DNA of 64,000 nucleotides, from the NCBI RefSeq assembly GCF_000471965.1, contig NC_022550.1, positions 372,001 to 436,000 on the forward strand, in the 5' to 3' direction. Each line of letters opens with the position of its first letter. Position 1 is the stretch's first letter. Source of the stretch: Blattabacterium sp. (Nauphoeta cinerea). Its GTDB lineage: Bacteria; Bacteroidota; Bacteroidia; Flavobacteriales; Blattabacteriaceae. Below are positions 40,519 through 58,870 of the stretch, one piece after another. The notes beneath the pieces are model-generated. The model searched no databases, was not told the DNA's origin, and saw only the letters and a program-made list of their open reading frames with translations. Made by a program: the position numbers and the translations under genes.

Positions 40519-40538
40519 TATATTTGACATGATGTCAA
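40519..40538 (+). promoter_or_regulatory. Putative trp promoter -7 element with overlapping palindrome
   Basis: TATATTTG (40519-40526) matches the Bacteroidota -7 consensus. It overlaps a perfect 7-1-7 inverted repeat, TTGACAT-G-ATGTCAA (40524-40538), which would cover the expected transcription start and so is well placed for an operator. trpE begins 134 bases downstream of the octamer. Confidence 0.45.
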
Positions 40539-40571
40539 TGTCATTACTAAAGTAAATGGTATTCTTCAATT

Positions 40572-40624
40572 AATATTGTATCAGCAATATTTCTGAGGCT
40601 TGTCTTTATGACGGCCTTTTTTTT
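40572..40624 (+). terminator. Terminator-like hairpin in the trpE leader (possible attenuator)
   Basis: A first hairpin pairs AATATTG (40572-40578) with CAATATT (40585-40591). A second pairs AGGC/GCCT and GTC/GAC with a small internal loop (40596-40617) and is followed by eight T's (40617-40624). It ends 35 bases before the trpE ATG. The upstream gene is on the other strand, so no plus-strand gene needs terminating. No leader peptide with Trp codons is seen. Confidence 0.55.
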
Positions 40625-40659
40625 ATCATGTTTTTTATCATGTCAAAATACCATAAACC

Positions 40660-50824: not shown

Positions 50825-51589
50825 TTAAAAAATTTCTAACACAACAGGACAATGATCGGAATATTGAACCTCTGGCATGAGATAAGCATTTCTCATTTTT
50901 TCTTTCAAAGAATTACTAACCATAGCATAATCAATTCTCCATCCTTTATTGCTTTTTCTAGCATTAGAACGATAACTCCACCAACTATAATGATGGGGAT
51001 CCTGAACAAAATTTCTAAAACTATCTGTAAATCCTAAATTGATAAAATCAGTCATCCATTCTCTTTCTTTTGGCAAAAAACCTGAAATATTTTGATTCCG
51101 AATAGGATCATAAATATCTATTTCATGATGACAAATATTATAATCGCCACAAATGATCATATCATTCAATTTATTTTTTATTTTTTTTATGTGTAATAAA
51201 AAATTTTTCATAAAAAAAAATTTAAAGTTTAATCTTTTCATCATATCATTTCCAGAAGGAACATAAAGACTAATTACTGACAAATTTTTGAAATCTACAC
51301 GTAAAACTCTTCCTTCTTCATCTATAGAATCTAATCCGATTCCATATTCTACATGAATAGGTTCTTCTTTGCACAAAAGACCTACACCACTATATCCTTT
51401 TCTTTTTGAAGGAAACCAATAGTGATTATAACCTAAATGATCAAATAAATTTGTATCTATTTGTTCTGGAAAAGCCTTTATTTCTTGTAAACATAAAATA
51501 TATGGCTGATTGGTTTCAATCCAATCAGATAATCCTTTCCTAATTCCAGACCTAATTCCATTTATATTATAACTAATAATTTTCATCAT
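50825..51589 (-). CDS. xth: Exodeoxyribonuclease III (AP endonuclease family)
   Basis: A class-II AP endonuclease/3'-5' exonuclease for base-excision repair. The 254-residue protein shows SYNINGIRSG at the start, LCLQEIKA (metal Glu, near 35), GYSGVGLL, the DYNICHHEIDIY block (Asp/Asn) and the C-terminal WRIDYAMVS and YSDHCPV (catalytic Asp/His). Either of the first two ATG codons may be used. It is one of few DNA repair genes expected in such a reduced genome. Confidence 0.94.
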   Translation of the reverse strand: MMKIISYNINGIRSGIRKGLSDWIETNQPYILCLQEIKAFPEQIDTNLFDHLGYNHYWFPSKRKGYSGVGLLCKEEPIHVEYGIGLDSIDEEGRVLRVDFKNLSVISLYVPSGNDMMKRLNFKFFFMKNFLLHIKKIKNKLNDMIICGDYNICHHEIDIYDPIRNQNISGFLPKEREWMTDFINLGFTDSFRNFVQDPHHYSWWSYRSNARKSNKGWRIDYAMVSNSLKEKMRNAYLMPEVQYSDHCPVVLEIF

Positions 51590-51634
51590 TTTAAATTTTT
51601 AAAAAGTTAATTATAAAATATTCAAAATAGTTTT

Positions 51635-51642
51635 TATATTTG
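51635..51642 (+). promoter_or_regulatory. Putative his promoter -7 element
   Basis: TATATTTG matches TAnnTTTG and is identical to the element before trpE. It lies 87 bases before the hisG ATG and about 40 bases before the leader hairpin, so transcription would run through the hairpin. Confidence 0.45.
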
Positions 51643-51681
51643 CCGTGATACATTAATTTGATCTACTAAAACTAAAATAAA

Positions 51682-51716
51682 AAAGCTTACAAGAGTAAGC
51701 TTTTATTATTTTTTCC
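51682..51716 (+). terminator. Terminator hairpin in the hisG leader (possible attenuator)
   Basis: A perfect 10-bp stem AAAAGCTTAC (51682-51691) / GTAAGCTTTT (51696-51705) with a 4-base AAGA loop, followed by ATTATTTTTT. It ends 13 bases before hisG. The other neighbour, xth, points away, so there is no upstream plus-strand gene. The flanking T-runs would let it act on both strands. No His-rich leader peptide is seen. Confidence 0.65.
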
Positions 51717-51728
51717 TGGAATTGGATT

Positions 51729-52586
51729 ATGGATAAACTTAAAATAGCAATTCAAAAATCGGGTCGTCTTTATGACGATTCTATAAAATTACTCAAAGAT
51801 TGTAGCATTGAAGTTAACATTGGAATAGATAAGTTAAAAACAACGGCTATGAATTTCCCCCTAGAAATACTTTTTCTTAGAGATGATGATATCCCTCAAT
51901 ATTTAGAAGACGGAGTGGCAGATATAGGAATTGTGGGAAAAAATGTTCTTTTAGAAAAAAGAAAAAGAATAAGAATTAAAGAACCTTTGGGTTTTGGAAA
52001 ATGTAGACTTTCTATAGCTGTACCTAAATCTCTGGCTTATAATAATATTAATGACTTGAATGGAAAACGTATTGCGACAAGTTATCCTTTTTTAGTTAAA
52101 GAATTTTTTAAAAAAAGATATATAAATGCAGAAATTCATGAAATATCTGGAGCAGTAGAAATAGCTCCAGGAATAGGTTTAGCAGATTGTATATGTGATT
52201 TAGTAAGTAGCGGATCCACACTTTTTATGAACGGATTAAAAGAAGTTGAGACTGTACTCCAATCTGAAGCTGTATTAGCTTCACATTTGCATTTAGGTAT
52301 CCCACAAAATACTATAATGGAAAAATTGTTATTCCGAATTAGAGCTGTAAGAAAAGCTAAAAACAATAAATATATTTTGTTGAACGTACCTAATGAAAAA
52401 TTAGAAAAAATAATATCTTATCTTCCAGGAATTAAAAGTCCAGTTGTTTTGCCTTTAGCAAATTCAGAATGTAGTTCCGTGCATTCTGTCGTCAATGAAA
52501 ATGATTTTTGGGGAATCATAGAAAATTTAAAAGCACTTGGAGCTCAAGATATATTGGTACTTCCCATAGAAAAAATTATACTATAA
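51729..52586 (+). CDS. hisG: ATP phosphoribosyltransferase (long form)
   Basis: HisG joins ATP and PRPP, the committed and normally feedback-inhibited step of histidine synthesis. The 285-residue length indicates the long, homohexameric form with a C-terminal regulatory domain (from about 210), so no HisZ partner is needed. DGVADIGIVGKN and the PRPP-loop region ADCICDLVSSGSTL are visible. First gene of a complete hisGDCBHAF-IE operon, preceded by a terminator-like hairpin. Confidence 0.96.
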   Translation: MDKLKIAIQKSGRLYDDSIKLLKDCSIEVNIGIDKLKTTAMNFPLEILFLRDDDIPQYLEDGVADIGIVGKNVLLEKRKRIRIKEPLGFGKCRLSIAVPKSLAYNNINDLNGKRIATSYPFLVKEFFKKRYINAEIHEISGAVEIAPGIGLADCICDLVSSGSTLFMNGLKEVETVLQSEAVLASHLHLGIPQNTIMEKLLFRIRAVRKAKNNKYILLNVPNEKLEKIISYLPGIKSPVVLPLANSECSSVHSVVNENDFWGIIENLKALGAQDILVLPIEKIIL

Positions 52587-52588
52587 AT

Positions 52589-53875
52589 ATGATTCAAGTA
52601 TATATTCATCCCACACACAAAACATGGAAATCTATTTCAAATAGAAACTTACAAAACATTTCTCACTTAAGAAACTTAGTAGTTCCTATTATTGACAATG
52701 TAAAAACTTATGGAGATATAGCTTTAAAAGCTTATACAAGAAAATATGATCATATAAATATAAAATCTATTCGAGTCTCAGAAGAAGATTTGAATAAAGC
52801 TTATATGAAAATTTCAAATCAATTAAAAAAATCTATTGAAATTGCATACCATAATATAAAATGTTTTCATGAAAAACAAGTACATGATGAACCACAAATA
52901 GAAATATCAAAGGGAATTTTTTGTTGGAGAAAAACTATTCCAATCGAAAAAATTGGTTTTTATATCCCAGGGGGATCTGCTCCTTTGTTATCTACTGTAT
53001 TAATGTTAGGAGTTCCGGGAAAATTATCAGGATGTAAAAATATTATTTTATGTACTCCCCCAGATTCAAATGGAGAAGTTCATCCATCTATTTTATATAC
53101 AGCTAAATATGTAGGGATTACACATATATATAAAGTCGGAGGAGCTCAAGCTATTGCGGCGATGGCTTATGGAACAGAAAGTATTCCTTCTGTATATAAA
53201 ATATTGGGACCAGGAAATTCTTATGTAACAATAGCTAAACAAATTGTATCTCAAAAAGGAATAGTATCTATAGATATGCCTGCCGGTCCTTCAGAAGTAG
53301 CAATTATAGCGGATGATACAGCCAATCCAGAATATGTTGCTGCTGATTTATTGTCTCAATCAGAACATGATCCAGAAAGTTATATTATTTTAGTTACTCC
53401 AAATAATCAATCTTGGACAGAGAAAGTTAAAGAAGAATTAAAAAAACAATTTTCAAATATTTCTAATAAACAAAATATTGTTGAAAAATCTTTGAAAAAA
53501 AGTAAATTAATCATTCTTCATTCATTGGATGAATGTTTAACTCTAATTAATCAAATTGCTCCAGAACATTTAATTATAAATTGTAAAAATGCTTCTTTTT
53601 GGGGAGAAAAAGTGATTAATGCTGGATCTGTTTTTTTAGGAAATTACTCTCCAGTTAGTGCAGGAGATTATGCTTCTGGAACAAATCATGTACTTCCTAC
53701 TTATGGTTATGCTAAATCTTATAGTGGAATCTCTATAGAGAGTTTTGTAAAAAAAATTACTTTTCAAAAAATATCTAAAAAAGGATTAAAACATTTATCA
53801 GAATGTGTTAATGTTTTATCTTCTGAAGAAGGATTATTTGCTCATAAAAAATCCATTAATATTCGGATAAAATAA
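52589..53875 (+). CDS. hisD: Histidinol dehydrogenase
   Basis: HisD oxidises histidinol to histidine in two NAD-dependent steps, using zinc. I choose the ATG at 52589 (MIQVYIHP), two bases after hisG; an upstream in-frame start would lie inside hisG. Motifs include GFYIPGGSAPLLST (near 115), the GPGNSYVTIAK block, DMPAGPSEVAI and SQSEHDPES (zinc and catalytic residues), with HVLPT near the C-terminus. Length 428 residues, normal. Confidence 0.96.
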   Translation: MIQVYIHPTHKTWKSISNRNLQNISHLRNLVVPIIDNVKTYGDIALKAYTRKYDHINIKSIRVSEEDLNKAYMKISNQLKKSIEIAYHNIKCFHEKQVHDEPQIEISKGIFCWRKTIPIEKIGFYIPGGSAPLLSTVLMLGVPGKLSGCKNIILCTPPDSNGEVHPSILYTAKYVGITHIYKVGGAQAIAAMAYGTESIPSVYKILGPGNSYVTIAKQIVSQKGIVSIDMPAGPSEVAIIADDTANPEYVAADLLSQSEHDPESYIILVTPNNQSWTEKVKEELKKQFSNISNKQNIVEKSLKKSKLIILHSLDECLTLINQIAPEHLIINCKNASFWGEKVINAGSVFLGNYSPVSAGDYASGTNHVLPTYGYAKSYSGISIESFVKKITFQKISKKGLKHLSECVNVLSSEEGLFAHKKSINIRIK

Positions 53876-53899
53876 AAAATAAATTTTAAATGTCAATGC

Positions 53900-54979
53900 A
53901 TGAATAAATTTAATTTGAATTCTTTAATTAGAAAAAATATTTTAAATCTGGATCCTTACATATCTGCTAGGATAGAACATCACAAAGAAAAAAATTCTAT
54001 TTTTTTAGATGCTAATGAAAATTCTTTCGGTTCTCCTTTATCTTTTTTAAATTCTTATAATAGATATCCAGATCCTATGCAAAAAGAATTGAAAGAAAAA
54101 ATATCAGATTTTAAAAATATTTCTCCATCTCATATATTTTTAGGGAATGGAAGTGACGAAATTATTGATTTGGTTTATCGTATTTTTTCTCGTCCTGAAA
54201 TAGATCATGCTATTATTTTTCCTCCTACTTATGGAATGTATGAAGTAAGTGGAAAAATTCATGGAGTAGATGTTGTCAAAATATTTCTTACAGAAGAAAA
54301 GTATCAATTAAATTTGAATCAATTAGAAAAAGTTGTAAATCCGTATAGTAAAATCATTTTTATTTGTTCTCCAAATAATCCTACTGGAAATGATCTCAAT
54401 AGAGAAGATATTGAAAATATAACAAAAAAATTTGCAGGAATTGTTGTTTTAGATGAAGCGTATATAGATTTTTCTAATCAAAAATCTTTATCAACAGAAA
54501 TTGATAAATATCCAAATTTAATTATTTTACAAACACTTTCTAAATCTTGGGGTTTAGCAGGATTAAGAATAGGAATAGCTATTGCATCTGAAGCAATTAT
54601 TGGATGGATGAACAAAGTAAAATATCCATATAATATTAATCTTCTTTCTCAAGAAATAGCAATTAAAGCTTTAGAAAATAAAGATTTATTTTTTTTTCAT
54701 TTGAAAAACATTCTATCAGAAAGAAAATATATGTTAGAATCTTTGAAAAAAATTCCTATCATACAAAATGTATATCCTAGTTCTGCTAATTTTTTATTAG
54801 TAAAAATAAATTTTTCTTCAAAAAATCTTTATCAATATTTAATGAAAAAAAAAATTATTGTTAGAGATCGTTCAAAAATCATTTTATGTAATAATTGTTT
54901 AAGGATCACAATAGGGACTCATGAAGAGAATGAGTATCTAATAGATCAGATTCGAAAATTCAAAAAAATAAAAATGTGA
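53900..54979 (+). CDS. hisC: Histidinol-phosphate aminotransferase
   Basis: HisC is a fold-type I PLP aminotransferase converting imidazole-acetol phosphate to histidinol phosphate. The 359-residue protein shows LDANENSFGSP (near residue 34), SPNNPTGND, VLDEAYIDF and the PLP-lysine motif TLSKSWGLAGLRIG (near 215). The stop and the hisB start overlap (TGATG). Confidence 0.96.
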   Translation: MNKFNLNSLIRKNILNLDPYISARIEHHKEKNSIFLDANENSFGSPLSFLNSYNRYPDPMQKELKEKISDFKNISPSHIFLGNGSDEIIDLVYRIFSRPEIDHAIIFPPTYGMYEVSGKIHGVDVVKIFLTEEKYQLNLNQLEKVVNPYSKIIFICSPNNPTGNDLNREDIENITKKFAGIVVLDEAYIDFSNQKSLSTEIDKYPNLIILQTLSKSWGLAGLRIGIAIASEAIIGWMNKVKYPYNINLLSQEIAIKALENKDLFFFHLKNILSERKYMLESLKKIPIIQNVYPSSANFLLVKINFSSKNLYQYLMKKKIIVRDRSKIILCNNCLRITIGTHEENEYLIDQIRKFKKIKM

Positions 54980-56145
54980 TGAAAAAAAAAATATTATTCA
55001 TTGATAGGGATGGAACAATTATAAAAGAATCTCCTCCCACTTATCAAATTGATTCTATTGAAAAAATCAATTTTTATCCTAAAGTTATATATTTCTTATC
55101 AAAAATTGTACAAGAATTAAACTATGATTTAGTTATGGTATCTAATCAAGATGGTTTGGGGACTGATCAATTTCCTGATAATATTTTTTGGCCTATTCAT
55201 AATCATATATTAAACATTTTAAAAACTGAAGGAATTCATTTTATTTCTGTTCATATAGACAAAACTTTTCCAGAGGAAAAATCAAAAAATAGAAAACCTG
55301 GAATAGGAATGTTGACAAATTATTTAAAATCAAATTATTACAATATTTCCAAATCTTTTGTAATTGGAGATCGATTGACAGACGTTTTATTAGCTAAAAA
55401 TCTAGGATGTAAATCTATATGGATTAAAGAGGATCATTCCCATAAAAATTTGACAAAAGAAGAAAAAGATTATACTTCTAGTATAGATGAAAAAGATTTA
55501 AAAAGAATAATATCTTTAAAAACTGATAGTTGGGAAAAGATTTATGAATATTTATCATCAATTACAACAAAAAAACTCGTTCATCAACGAACGACATTAG
55601 AAACCAATATAAAAATTTCTATTTTCCTTTATGGAAAAGGAAGAAATCATATTCAAACAGGATTGGGTTTTTTTGATCATCTTCTACAACAAATAGCATT
55701 TCATAGCTCTATAGATTTAAATATTCAAGCGAAAGGAGATCTTTATGTAGACGATCATCATACTATAGAGGATATTGGAATTACTTTAGGAGAAAGTTTT
55801 TATCAATCTTTGGAAGATAAAAGAGGAATAGAACGTTATGGATTCTACACTCTTCCTATGGATGAAAGTTTATCTACAATTGCATTAGATATTGGAGGCA
55901 GAAGCCAATTGTTTTGGAAAGTCAAATTTTCTAGAGAAAAAATAGGTAAAATTTCTACTGAAATGTTTTTTCACTTTTTCAAATCTTTTTCTTTATCTGC
56001 CAAATGTAATTTGCATATTCATACTATAGGAAAAAATGATCATCATAAAATAGAATCTATTTTTAAATGTTTTGGAAGAGCTATTAAAATGGCAATCCAA
56101 AAAAATTCTTCTACTCAAATACCTAGTACGAAAGGTATTTTGTAA
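54979..56145 (+). CDS. hisB: Bifunctional histidinol-phosphatase / imidazoleglycerol-phosphate dehydratase
   Basis: The N-terminal HAD phosphatase domain (ILFIDRDGTI near residue 5, VSNQDGLGTD, GDRLTDVLLAKN) dephosphorylates histidinol phosphate. The C-terminal domain (from about 200) is the Mn-dependent dehydratase with GFFDHLLQQIAFHS, DDHHTIEDIGI and the second metal-site DHHKIESIFK. The fusion is also found in enteric bacteria and many Bacteroidota. The ATG at 54979 overlaps the hisC stop; a GTG one codon upstream is an alternative. Confidence 0.96.
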   Translation: MKKKILFIDRDGTIIKESPPTYQIDSIEKINFYPKVIYFLSKIVQELNYDLVMVSNQDGLGTDQFPDNIFWPIHNHILNILKTEGIHFISVHIDKTFPEEKSKNRKPGIGMLTNYLKSNYYNISKSFVIGDRLTDVLLAKNLGCKSIWIKEDHSHKNLTKEEKDYTSSIDEKDLKRIISLKTDSWEKIYEYLSSITTKKLVHQRTTLETNIKISIFLYGKGRNHIQTGLGFFDHLLQQIAFHSSIDLNIQAKGDLYVDDHHTIEDIGITLGESFYQSLEDKRGIERYGFYTLPMDESLSTIALDIGGRSQLFWKVKFSREKIGKISTEMFFHFFKSFSLSAKCNLHIHTIGKNDHHKIESIFKCFGRAIKMAIQKNSSTQIPSTKGIL

Positions 56146-56160
56146 AAATTTTAATATATT

Positions 56161-56751
56161 ATGAAAACGATTATTATAAAATATCCTGCCGGAAATGTAC
56201 AATCAATTCTTTTTTCTTTAGAAAGAATAGGAGTACAAGCTACGGTTACAGATTCCAAAGAGTTGATTCAAAATGCAAAAAAAATTATTTTGCCTGGTGT
56301 TGGGGAAGCTAACTGTGCCATGCAATATTTAAAAGAAAAAAAACTGGATTTACTTTTATCAAAATTAAAACAACCTATATTAGGAATATGTTTGGGGATG
56401 CAATTACTTTGTAAGTCCTCAGAAGAAAGTAATACTACATGTATAGGAATTTTTGATTTATTGGTAAAAAAATTTCAACCTAATAATAAAAATGATAAAG
56501 TCCCTCAAGTAGGTTGGAATACAATTCATAAATTAAAAGGATCTCTATTTGAAAATATTCCAGATGGAAGTTATCAATATTTTGTTCACAGTTATTATGT
56601 TCCTTTAGGAAAGGATACAACAGCAAAAACAGAGTATATAATCACTTACAGTGCTGCATTACAAAAAAATAATTTTTATGCTGTACAGTTCCATCCAGAA
56701 AAATCTTCTTATGTAGGACATAAAATATTAGAAAATTTTATTCGATTATAA
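56161..56751 (+). CDS. hisH: Imidazole glycerol phosphate synthase, glutaminase subunit
   Basis: HisH supplies ammonia to HisF. The 196-residue class-I amidotransferase shows the nucleophile Cys in LGICLGMQLLC (near residue 79), LPGVGEAN, VGWNTI, YFVHSYY and the His/Glu pair in AVQFHPEKS. Complete; hisA follows 10 bases later. Confidence 0.96.
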   Translation: MKTIIIKYPAGNVQSILFSLERIGVQATVTDSKELIQNAKKIILPGVGEANCAMQYLKEKKLDLLLSKLKQPILGICLGMQLLCKSSEESNTTCIGIFDLLVKKFQPNNKNDKVPQVGWNTIHKLKGSLFENIPDGSYQYFVHSYYVPLGKDTTAKTEYIITYSAALQKNNFYAVQFHPEKSSYVGHKILENFIRL

Positions 56752-56761
56752 ATTTATTACA

Positions 56762-57489
56762 ATGGATATTATAGTAGCTATAGATTTAATTGATGGGAAA
56801 TGTGTTCGATTAATACAAGGGGATTTTAAAAGAAAAAAATTTACAATAAAGATCCATTATCTGTCGCTTTATTACTAGAAAATCATGGAATATCTAGGTT
56901 GCATCTAGTAGATTTAGATGGAGCAAAAAAAGGAAAAGTAGTTCATTGGAAAATATTAGAAAAAATAGCAAAATATACACATCTAACTATAGATTTTGGA
57001 GGGGGGATTCATTCTGATGAAGATATACGTACAGTGTTTGAATGCGGAGGACATATAGCTACTGTTGGAAGTGTTGCTGTTCAAAAACCTTTTATTTTAA
57101 AAAAATGGATTGATACTTATGGAGGAGATAAAATATTGTTAGGAGTAGACGTCAAAAATAATAAAATAGCAACCAATGGATGGACTAAATTTAGTGATTT
57201 ACCATTTTTAGATTTTTTACAAGAAAAAAGTAATCATGGAGTGAAGAAAATTTTTTGTACAGATATTTCTAAAGATGGAATCTTATCAGGTCCTTCTTTT
57301 CTTTTATATAAAAAAATTATTGAAAAATTTCCAAATATTGAATTCATAGCAAGTGGAGGAATCAGTAATATAAGTGATGTATATCAATTATTTGATTTGG
57401 GTTGTAGTGGAGTTATTGTTGGAAAAGCTATATATGAAAAAAAAATATCATTATATGATCTTAAAAATTGGAAAAAAAATGAATCATAA
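56762..57489 (+). CDS. hisA: HisA isomerase, frame interrupted at an A7 tract
   Basis: HisA isomerises ProFAR to PRFAR on the histidine pathway. From the ATG at 56762 the frame reads VAIDLIDGKCVRLIQGDFKRKK, the family N-terminus with the catalytic Asp, and is then lost at A7 (56833-56839). One extra A gives KKIYNKDPLSVALLLE and joins the rest: LHLVDLDGAKKG, DFGGGIHSDED, TDISKDGIL and ASGGISN. The downstream open frame (from 56899) lacks the catalytic Asp of strand 1, so it could not be active alone. All other his genes are intact. Confidence 0.9.
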
Positions 57490-57502
57490 CAATTAATTAA
57501 AT

Positions 57503-58264
57503 ATGTTGGCTAAACGTATTATCCCTTGTTTGGATATAAAAAATGGAAGAACAGTAAAAGGAGTAAATTTTAGATATTTAAAAGATGCTGGAGATCCAAT
57601 AAAACTGGCTTGTTGGTATACAAAACAAGGAGCAGATGAATTAATATTTTTGGACATCACTGCGACAAATGAAAAACGTAAGACACTAATCAGTTTAGTA
57701 AAAGATATTTCTCGTCATATTAATATTCCTTTTACGGTTGGTGGAGGAATTAAAGAAGAAAAAGATGTTGAACTTTTGTTAAATGCAGGGGCAGATAAGA
57801 TATCTATCAACACTGCTGCTTTTAAAAATCCGAATCTTTTAGAAAGTTTTTCTAAAAGATTCGGAAGTCAATGCATTGTTTTAGCTATTGACACTAAATA
57901 TGAAGAAAATAAATGGTGGGTGTATTTAAATGGAGGAAGAATTTCTACTCAGACTAAAACTTTAGATTGGGTTAAGGAAGGAACTAGTAGAGGAGCAGGA
58001 GAGATATTACTGACTTCAATGAATCATGATGGAACAAAAAATGGATTCGCAGTAGATATTACTAGAAAAATATCCGAAAATATTTCTACGCCTATAATTG
58101 CTTCAGGTGGCGCTGGAAAATTAGATGATTTTTATAAAATCTTTGAAGAAGGAAAAGCTGATGCAGCTTTAGCCGCCAGTATATTCCATTATCAAGAAAT
58201 AGAAATCCCTAATTTAAAATGTTATTTAAATCAACTTCATATACCTGTAAGAACTAAAATATAA
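57503..58264 (+). CDS. hisF: Imidazole glycerol phosphate synthase, cyclase subunit
   Basis: HisF uses ammonia from HisH and PRFAR to make IGP and AICAR. The 253-residue TIM barrel starts [20 protein letters not shown] (catalytic Asp) and has [38 protein letters not shown] (second catalytic Asp) and [12 protein letters not shown]. Complete; 12 bases separate it from hisI. Confidence 0.97.
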
Positions 58265-58276
58265 ACAAACATACAT

Positions 58277-58870
58277 ATGCATATGATAAATTTTAAAAAA
58301 GAATTGATTCCTGCAATTATTCAAGATTCGAAAACAGATAAGGTGTTAATGTTAGGTTATATGAATCAAGAAGCCTATCAAAAAAGTATTGATGAAAAAA
58401 AAGTGACTTTTTACAGCAGATCAAAAAAAAGATTATGGACAAAAGGAGAAATCAGTAAAAATTATCTTCTTATTAAAGAGATATTAATAGATTGTGACCA
58501 AGATACATTATTAATCAAAGCAACCCCAACAGGCCCTATTTGTCATAAAGGAACAGATACATGTTGGAAAGAAATAAATAAAAATAGTAATTTTTTATTT
58601 TATTTAGAAAATATAATATCGGATAGAATTAAAAAAAAACAAGAAAATTCTTATATATATCAATTATCAAAAAAAGGAATCAATAGAATATCTCAAAAAT
58701 TAGGAGAAGAAACAGTGGAACTTATTATAGAATCTAAAGACAATAATACAAATTTATTTTTAAATGAATCTGCTGATTTACTTTTTCATTATCTTATTCT
58801 TTTAAATAAAAAAGGATTGAAAATACAAGATGTTATTAATATTTTGAAAAATAGGCATTCAAAATCCTAA
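58277..58870 (+). CDS. hisIE: Bifunctional phosphoribosyl-AMP cyclohydrolase / phosphoribosyl-ATP pyrophosphatase
   Basis: The N-terminal HisI domain (about 1-105) has VLMLGYMNQEAYQKS, the SRSKKRLWTKGE block, DCDQD-like IDCDQDTLLI and the zinc Cys of CHKGTDTCW. The C-terminal HisE domain (from about 110) is a MazG-like pyrophosphatase with KLGEETVELIIES. The fusion ends the his operon. Either ATG 58277 or 58283 may be used. Five bases separate its stop from convergent queE. Confidence 0.96.
   Translation: MHMINFKKELIPAIIQDSKTDKVLMLGYMNQEAYQKSIDEKKVTFYSRSKKRLWTKGEISKNYLLIKEILIDCDQDTLLIKATPTGPICHKGTDTCWKEINKNSNFLFYLENIISDRIKKKQENSYIYQLSKKGINRISQKLGEETVELIIESKDNNTNLFLNESADLLFHYLILLNKKGLKIQDVINILKNRHSKS

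Follow-up and report, generated by a model that had tools for sequence, protein, structure and literature searches.

A conserved hairpin before the his operon of Blattabacterium: a putative terminator remnant of a histidine attenuator

Why should an obligate symbiont that provides amino acids keep what looks like a transcription terminator between the promoter and the first gene of its histidine operon? The question is raised by a stretch of 64,000 nucleotides from the cockroach endosymbiont Blattabacterium sp. (Nauphoeta cinerea) (contig NC_022550.1, positions 372,001 to 436,000; hereafter the window, in whose numbering coordinates are given). An earlier note on this DNA, made from the sequence alone, had remarked that the his and trp operons share an attenuator-like leader, and had proposed either a common, undescribed way to tune amino-acid supply or convergent remnants. 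The shared leader and its character of a remnant have held up well in the present analysis; the other parts of the proposal have not, as will be seen below.

Anatomy and setting of the his leader

The sequence before hisG is organized as a short leader (Table 1). Its promoter carries TATATTTG, a match to TAnnTTTG, the consensus of the -7 box in Bacteroidota (PMC7366714), and this is followed by a leader of 38 nt, a perfect hairpin and a T-rich tail. All of this had been seen in the earlier note, which put the leader at about 40 bases; only the spacing needs correction, since 14 bases, not 13, lie between the end of the tail and the ATG of hisG. Three of the 10 perfect pairs of the stem are G-C, the loop has 4 nt and the predicted stability of the stem is -10.1 kcal/mol. 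The inverted repeat widens to 17 nt at 82% (51674-51711). The hairpin is not a chance occurrence, because the leader has a folding energy of -16.9 kcal/mol, whereas 200 shuffled sequences give -7.9 +/- 2.3 kcal/mol and none of them equals it (z -3.9), and because chance would produce the motif AAGCTTAC-N4-GTAAGCTT, with at most two mismatches, 0.01 times in a window. By its sequence the element has the make-up of an intrinsic terminator, i.e. a stable stem-loop directly 5′ of a U-rich tract, and it is placed between a promoter and the first structural gene. The neighbouring xth gene is divergent and lies on the other strand, which rules the hairpin out as the 3′ terminator of any gene upstream on its own strand. 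Searching the window with the Rfam covariance models at their gathering score returned two tRNAs only, and no his leader or other cis-regulator.

Table 1. Features of the his leader, its neighbours and the trp leader, in window coordinates
Feature	Position	Strand	Basis or remark
Conserved -33 region of the his promoter, AAATATTCAAAATAG	51616..51630	+	alignment; 1.9 changes per column over 49 genomes
-7 box (TAnnTTTG) of the his promoter, TATATTTG	51635..51642	+	sequence; 0.9 changes per column over 49 genomes
Leader from promoter to hairpin, 38 nt, without His-rich peptide or antiterminator	51643..51680	+	
Probable transcription start (A at 51648), with ATACATTAA	51648..51656	+	
Predicted terminator hairpin AAAAGCTTAC-AAGA-GTAAGCTTTT	51681..51704	+	sequence, folding, 48 of 49 genus genomes
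T-rich tail ATTATTTTTT	51705..51714	+	predicted 3′ end of a short transcript near 51710
hisG, first gene of the operon, ATG at 51729	51729..52586	+	NCBIfam TIGR00070
his operon, hisG-D-C-B-H-A-F-IE	51729-58870	+	TIGR00070 and other his family profiles
xth (exodeoxyribonuclease III), divergent neighbour	50825..51589	-	TIGR00633
-7 box of the trp promoter, TATATTTG	40519..40526	+	sequence
trp leader hairpin GAGGCTTGTC-TTTAT-GACGGCCTT, then a T-run	40595..40618	+	core as in the free-living trp terminator

Such elements are rare in this genome, which amounts to 626,626 bases in 2 contigs. Along the chromosome (622,952 bases, taken locus by locus), we scanned the 255 upstream regions with a length of 40 nt or more for a hairpin followed by a T-run, and only 13 gave any match. 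The trp leader is among them, and the his hairpin surpasses all the others, save for its own reading on the reverse strand and for one site before an ORF of 66 amino acids. Its full motif occurs once in the chromosome, with no second copy. A separate, near-symmetric hairpin (ATTTTCC...GGAAAAT) was seen between tyrS, on the minus strand, and an ORF of 78 amino acids (L035:5677-5841, chromosome 65677-65841), with T-rich stretches beyond it on both strands.

Within the operon itself, hisA (56762-57489) is out of frame: its N-terminal part, starting at 56762, and the rest of the gene are in different frames, and the change falls at a run of seven A (56833-56839). Rescue of frame breaks by polymerase slippage has been reported in other endosymbionts, and the break in hisA is possibly of this kind, or else a sequencing error.

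Attenuators of free-living relatives and the lost sensor

In all of 20 free-living Flavobacteriales, a small ORF that contains consecutive His codons (HHH or more, e.g. MNLIQTHHHHHTGSQTSQG) precedes hisG, and a strong terminator lies downstream of it. Among another 75 Bacteroidota loci, most of them from relatives of Chitinophaga, 68 likewise have a His-rich leader ORF, which never turns up in two control stretches taken from these loci. In 13 of the 20 Flavobacteriales, pairing between the leader and the 5′ arm of the terminator is better than in shuffled sequences (p <= 0.05; median 0.01). To judge from these features, the his leader of free-living Flavobacteriales is a classical ribosome-mediated attenuator. 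For Flavobacterium psychrophilum, an earlier study reports attenuation by leader peptides upstream of amino-acid operons (PMC9723704).

The Blattabacterium element shares with this attenuator the operon, the place between promoter and hisG, and the hairpin with its U-tract. In contrast, it has neither the His codons nor the antiterminator, its leader is short, and it has no match in Rfam, whose His leader represents the form known best from Proteobacteria. As for the codons, no leader ORF with HHH was found in any of 49 genomes of the genus; as for the antiterminator, pairing with the 5′ arm of the terminator was better than in shuffles at p <= 0.05 in none of 47 (median p 0.41). In this pairing analysis, which took in both the symbionts and the free-living Flavobacteriales, the terminator chosen for one locus, L135, was wrong, being too weak. 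The sensing half has thus been lost in the symbiont, and the idea that the leader tunes amino-acid supply finds no support as its function now. The retained half seems to descend from the ancestral terminator. Stems of the GCTTAC/GTAAGC type stand beside His leaders in two f7 genomes (AAGGCTTACCGC...GGTAAGCC in L118 and GGGCTTGCC...GGTAAGCCC in L119), and G053, a family member of 1.3 Mb, carries a similar hairpin (AGAAGTTTGC...GCAAGCTTTT). Most terminators of free-living Flavobacteriales have a different stem (AACCCGTCTGAG...), and it is therefore from the position, together with these few cases, that we infer the descent.

The trp leader tells a parallel story. Profile searches place the trp operon from 40660 on and the his operon from 51729 on, so the count of 'two of two' large amino-acid operons with such a leader stands for the window, as far as its operons are identified. 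An operon on the minus strand at 2-14 kb, considered as a possible ilv-leu operon, was rejected, its profiles being those of mur and fts genes. The resemblance of the two leaders is real, but, contrary to the earlier note, their layout is not the same: that of trp is 68 nt long, with a bulged base in the stem. Free-living trp leaders encode FWWNTY or WWW and end with GGCTTGTC...GACAAGCC and a T-run (L155, L158, L159 and L166). The Blattabacterium trp hairpin (GAGGCTTGTC-TTTAT-GACGGCC) keeps the core of this terminator, and no Trp-rich peptide was seen in its leader. It is decaying or being remodelled: the GGCTTGTC core is absent from 17 of the 44 genomes that have trpE, a few of which possess another hairpin instead. 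Since the trp core is shared with the free-living terminator and is eroding, and the his hairpin is conserved, the two leaders are, on comparative grounds, parallel remnants of ordinary attenuators; that of his is held and that of trp is drifting. They correspond to attenuators at the same places in free-living Bacteroidota, with ordinary His- or Trp-codon leader peptides, so neither 'convergent' nor, given the report on F. psychrophilum, 'undescribed' is an apt term.

Two further observations concern trp. ATGGTATT (40556-40563) in the leader is complementary to AATACCAT (40647-40654) just before trpE, and the helix would enclose the terminator. Such a long-range helix is frequent, yet pairing of the leader with the start region beats shuffles in 5 of 40 cases only, and we rejected this candidate. 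In addition, trpE is a pseudogene in G015 (L152) and has no full-length match in G001, G027, G042 and G044; tryptophan synthesis has apparently been lost several times within the genus, and hisG never.

Conservation across the genus and what may maintain the hairpin

We extracted and aligned every hisG leader from the 49 Blattabacterium genomes and counted changes per column on a tree of hisG, built from its first 285 nt. All 49 have hisG and 48 have the hairpin before it; the absence of the hairpin from close relatives, which the earlier note had named as a ground for refuting its reading, is thus not what the genus shows. (The automatic choice of hairpin fell outside the leader for G025, G028, G041, G009 and G015, whose true hairpins come from the extraction and alignment.) The arms are altered in G039, G009 and G030. 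In G044 the hairpin is lost and the his operon complete; therefore the hairpin is not indispensable there. The leader measures about 25-55 nt in most of the genomes. The two arms undergo 1.3 and 0.8 changes per column, close to the rate of the -7 box and far below that of fourfold sites in hisG (7.7), and are thus held by selection; the middle of the leader undergoes about 6.7. The tail on the hisG side has a mean of 7.5 T per 10 positions, versus 5.2 on the reverse side (46 genomes). It is weakest in G001, G042 and G047, relatives of G044; G001, G042 and G044 are among the genomes without a full-length trpE match.

With moderate confidence, we regard the his element as the terminator half of the ancestral his attenuator, which would now act as a constitutive partial terminator without histidine sensing. 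In the ancestral state, a ribosome on the His-rich leader peptide would have chosen between antiterminator and terminator. Blattabacterium has lost the antiterminator strand along with the His codons, and has kept the promoter and the terminator. RNA polymerase would start near 51648, transcribe about 60 nt and meet the hairpin and U-tract. A fraction of the transcripts would be released near 51710 and the remainder would read through into hisG-hisIE, at a ratio that is presumably fixed, whatever the histidine level. The observations on which this account builds are the anatomy of the leader, its conservation, the ancestral attenuator in relatives and the loss of both peptide and antiterminator; termination in vivo is what we infer from them. 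Its efficiency may be modest, as is suggested by the mere three G-C pairs of the stem and by an A that interrupts the tail.

Another possibility is that the hairpin is an element of the 5′ untranslated region that serves mRNA stability or the translation of hisG, and not a terminator. A 5′ hairpin can protect mRNA, and strong conservation without a sensor speaks for such a role. Against it speak the T-rich tail, which has been preserved towards hisG, and the ancestral element of this site, which is a terminator; in addition, the distance from hairpin to start codon ranges from 9 to about 41 nt across genomes, so that the start site is not covered. We hold this explanation to be unlikely.

The loop of the hairpin raises a different issue. 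It is hypervariable, with 16.3 changes per column, and has 4 nt in 32 of 46 genomes and up to 15 nt in the others. At least five times on the hisG tree it was inverted, AAGA being exchanged with its reverse complement TCTT while the arms remained unchanged (e.g. L024 versus L027). Template switching between the arms of a hairpin explains this pattern, which is its hallmark (PMC8794818), and the flips can be read as a natural record of template-switch loop inversion. Inversion of the whole loop between intact arms is just what that work describes, mainly in rRNA and other RNA genes, whereas here it affects an operon leader. One could then suppose that the hairpin is a functionless relic, whose perfect pairing is upheld by template switching during replication. 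But this process would also spread mutations of the arms as compensatory pairs. Instead, the arms have kept one sequence, even at their G-C pairs, in a genus that is AT-rich and whose neutral sites undergo about 8 changes per column; a mere relic appears quite improbable.

Against the constitutive partial terminator it must be said that the arms hardly covary and are conserved in sequence, beyond what the stem of a plain terminator would call for. The terminator might still be regulated without a leader peptide, for instance by a protein or metabolite that recognizes the GCTTAC/GTAAGC arms, and a new trans-acting control would then have replaced sensing by the ribosome. We give this idea slightly less credit than the preceding one.

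It may also be asked whether a minimal leader could still sense histidine, a ribosome starting at the extreme 5′ end on ATG-CAT-TAA and the speed at its single His codon setting termination. ATGCATTAA, which encodes Met-His-stop, is present in 19 of the 49 genomes, and in 18 of these it stands exactly 5 nt past TTTG, the position of the leader ATG in the f7 relative L119. Nevertheless, the G of its ATG has changed 11 times, above most columns of the leader. With 19 genomes only and a start codon that is not conserved, this mini-ORF was rejected as a contracted leader peptide. The window has ATACATTAA, a decayed form of it, and the alternative GTG-ATA-CAT-TAA begins upstream of the probable transcription start; moreover, the CAT lies well upstream of the hairpin, and the antiterminator is absent. 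The mini-ORF is probably the relic of the start of the leader peptide, broken in the window, and a working sensor of this kind is very doubtful. Least credible of all is a DNA operator, with a dimeric regulator on the palindrome AAAGCTTAC-N4-GTAAGCTTT: the arms are indeed conserved in sequence beyond what pairing needs, but a spacing of 4-15 bp would rotate one half-site against the other, the tail has remained rich in T and the full motif is unique in the chromosome, and constant arms at variable spacing favour an RNA hairpin.

A probable terminator without its sensor

Leader-peptide attenuators of Bacteroidota are already known, and so is their erosion in symbionts (PMC4122931). The Flavobacterium case (PMC9723704) has in common with the constitutive terminator proposed here the lineage, the class of operon and a promoter of the TAnnTTTG type, but the clues to a leader peptide are present there and the peptide is gone in Blattabacterium. 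Serratia symbiotica is likewise an insect symbiont that is losing leader control of its amino-acid operons; there, however, the leader and its peptide decay jointly or are separated from the operon (PMC4122931), whereas Blattabacterium keeps the terminator alone, throughout the genus. Among open papers, we found no description of a terminator retained genus-wide after loss of the sensor, and none on Blattabacterium leaders.

The question is then why selection keeps a sensorless terminator before an operon for an essential nutrient, and whether there is a fixed ceiling on his output. The simplest answer is that the hairpin limits the expression of a costly operon; protection of the mRNA and trans-acting control are possible reasons as well. 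Nature has provided controls, in the trp leader with its decaying hairpin and in G044, where that of his is gone. The locus would thus illustrate the fate of a classical regulatory RNA in an obligate, amino-acid-providing symbiont: the sensor has gone, and what may be a brake is conserved across the genus.
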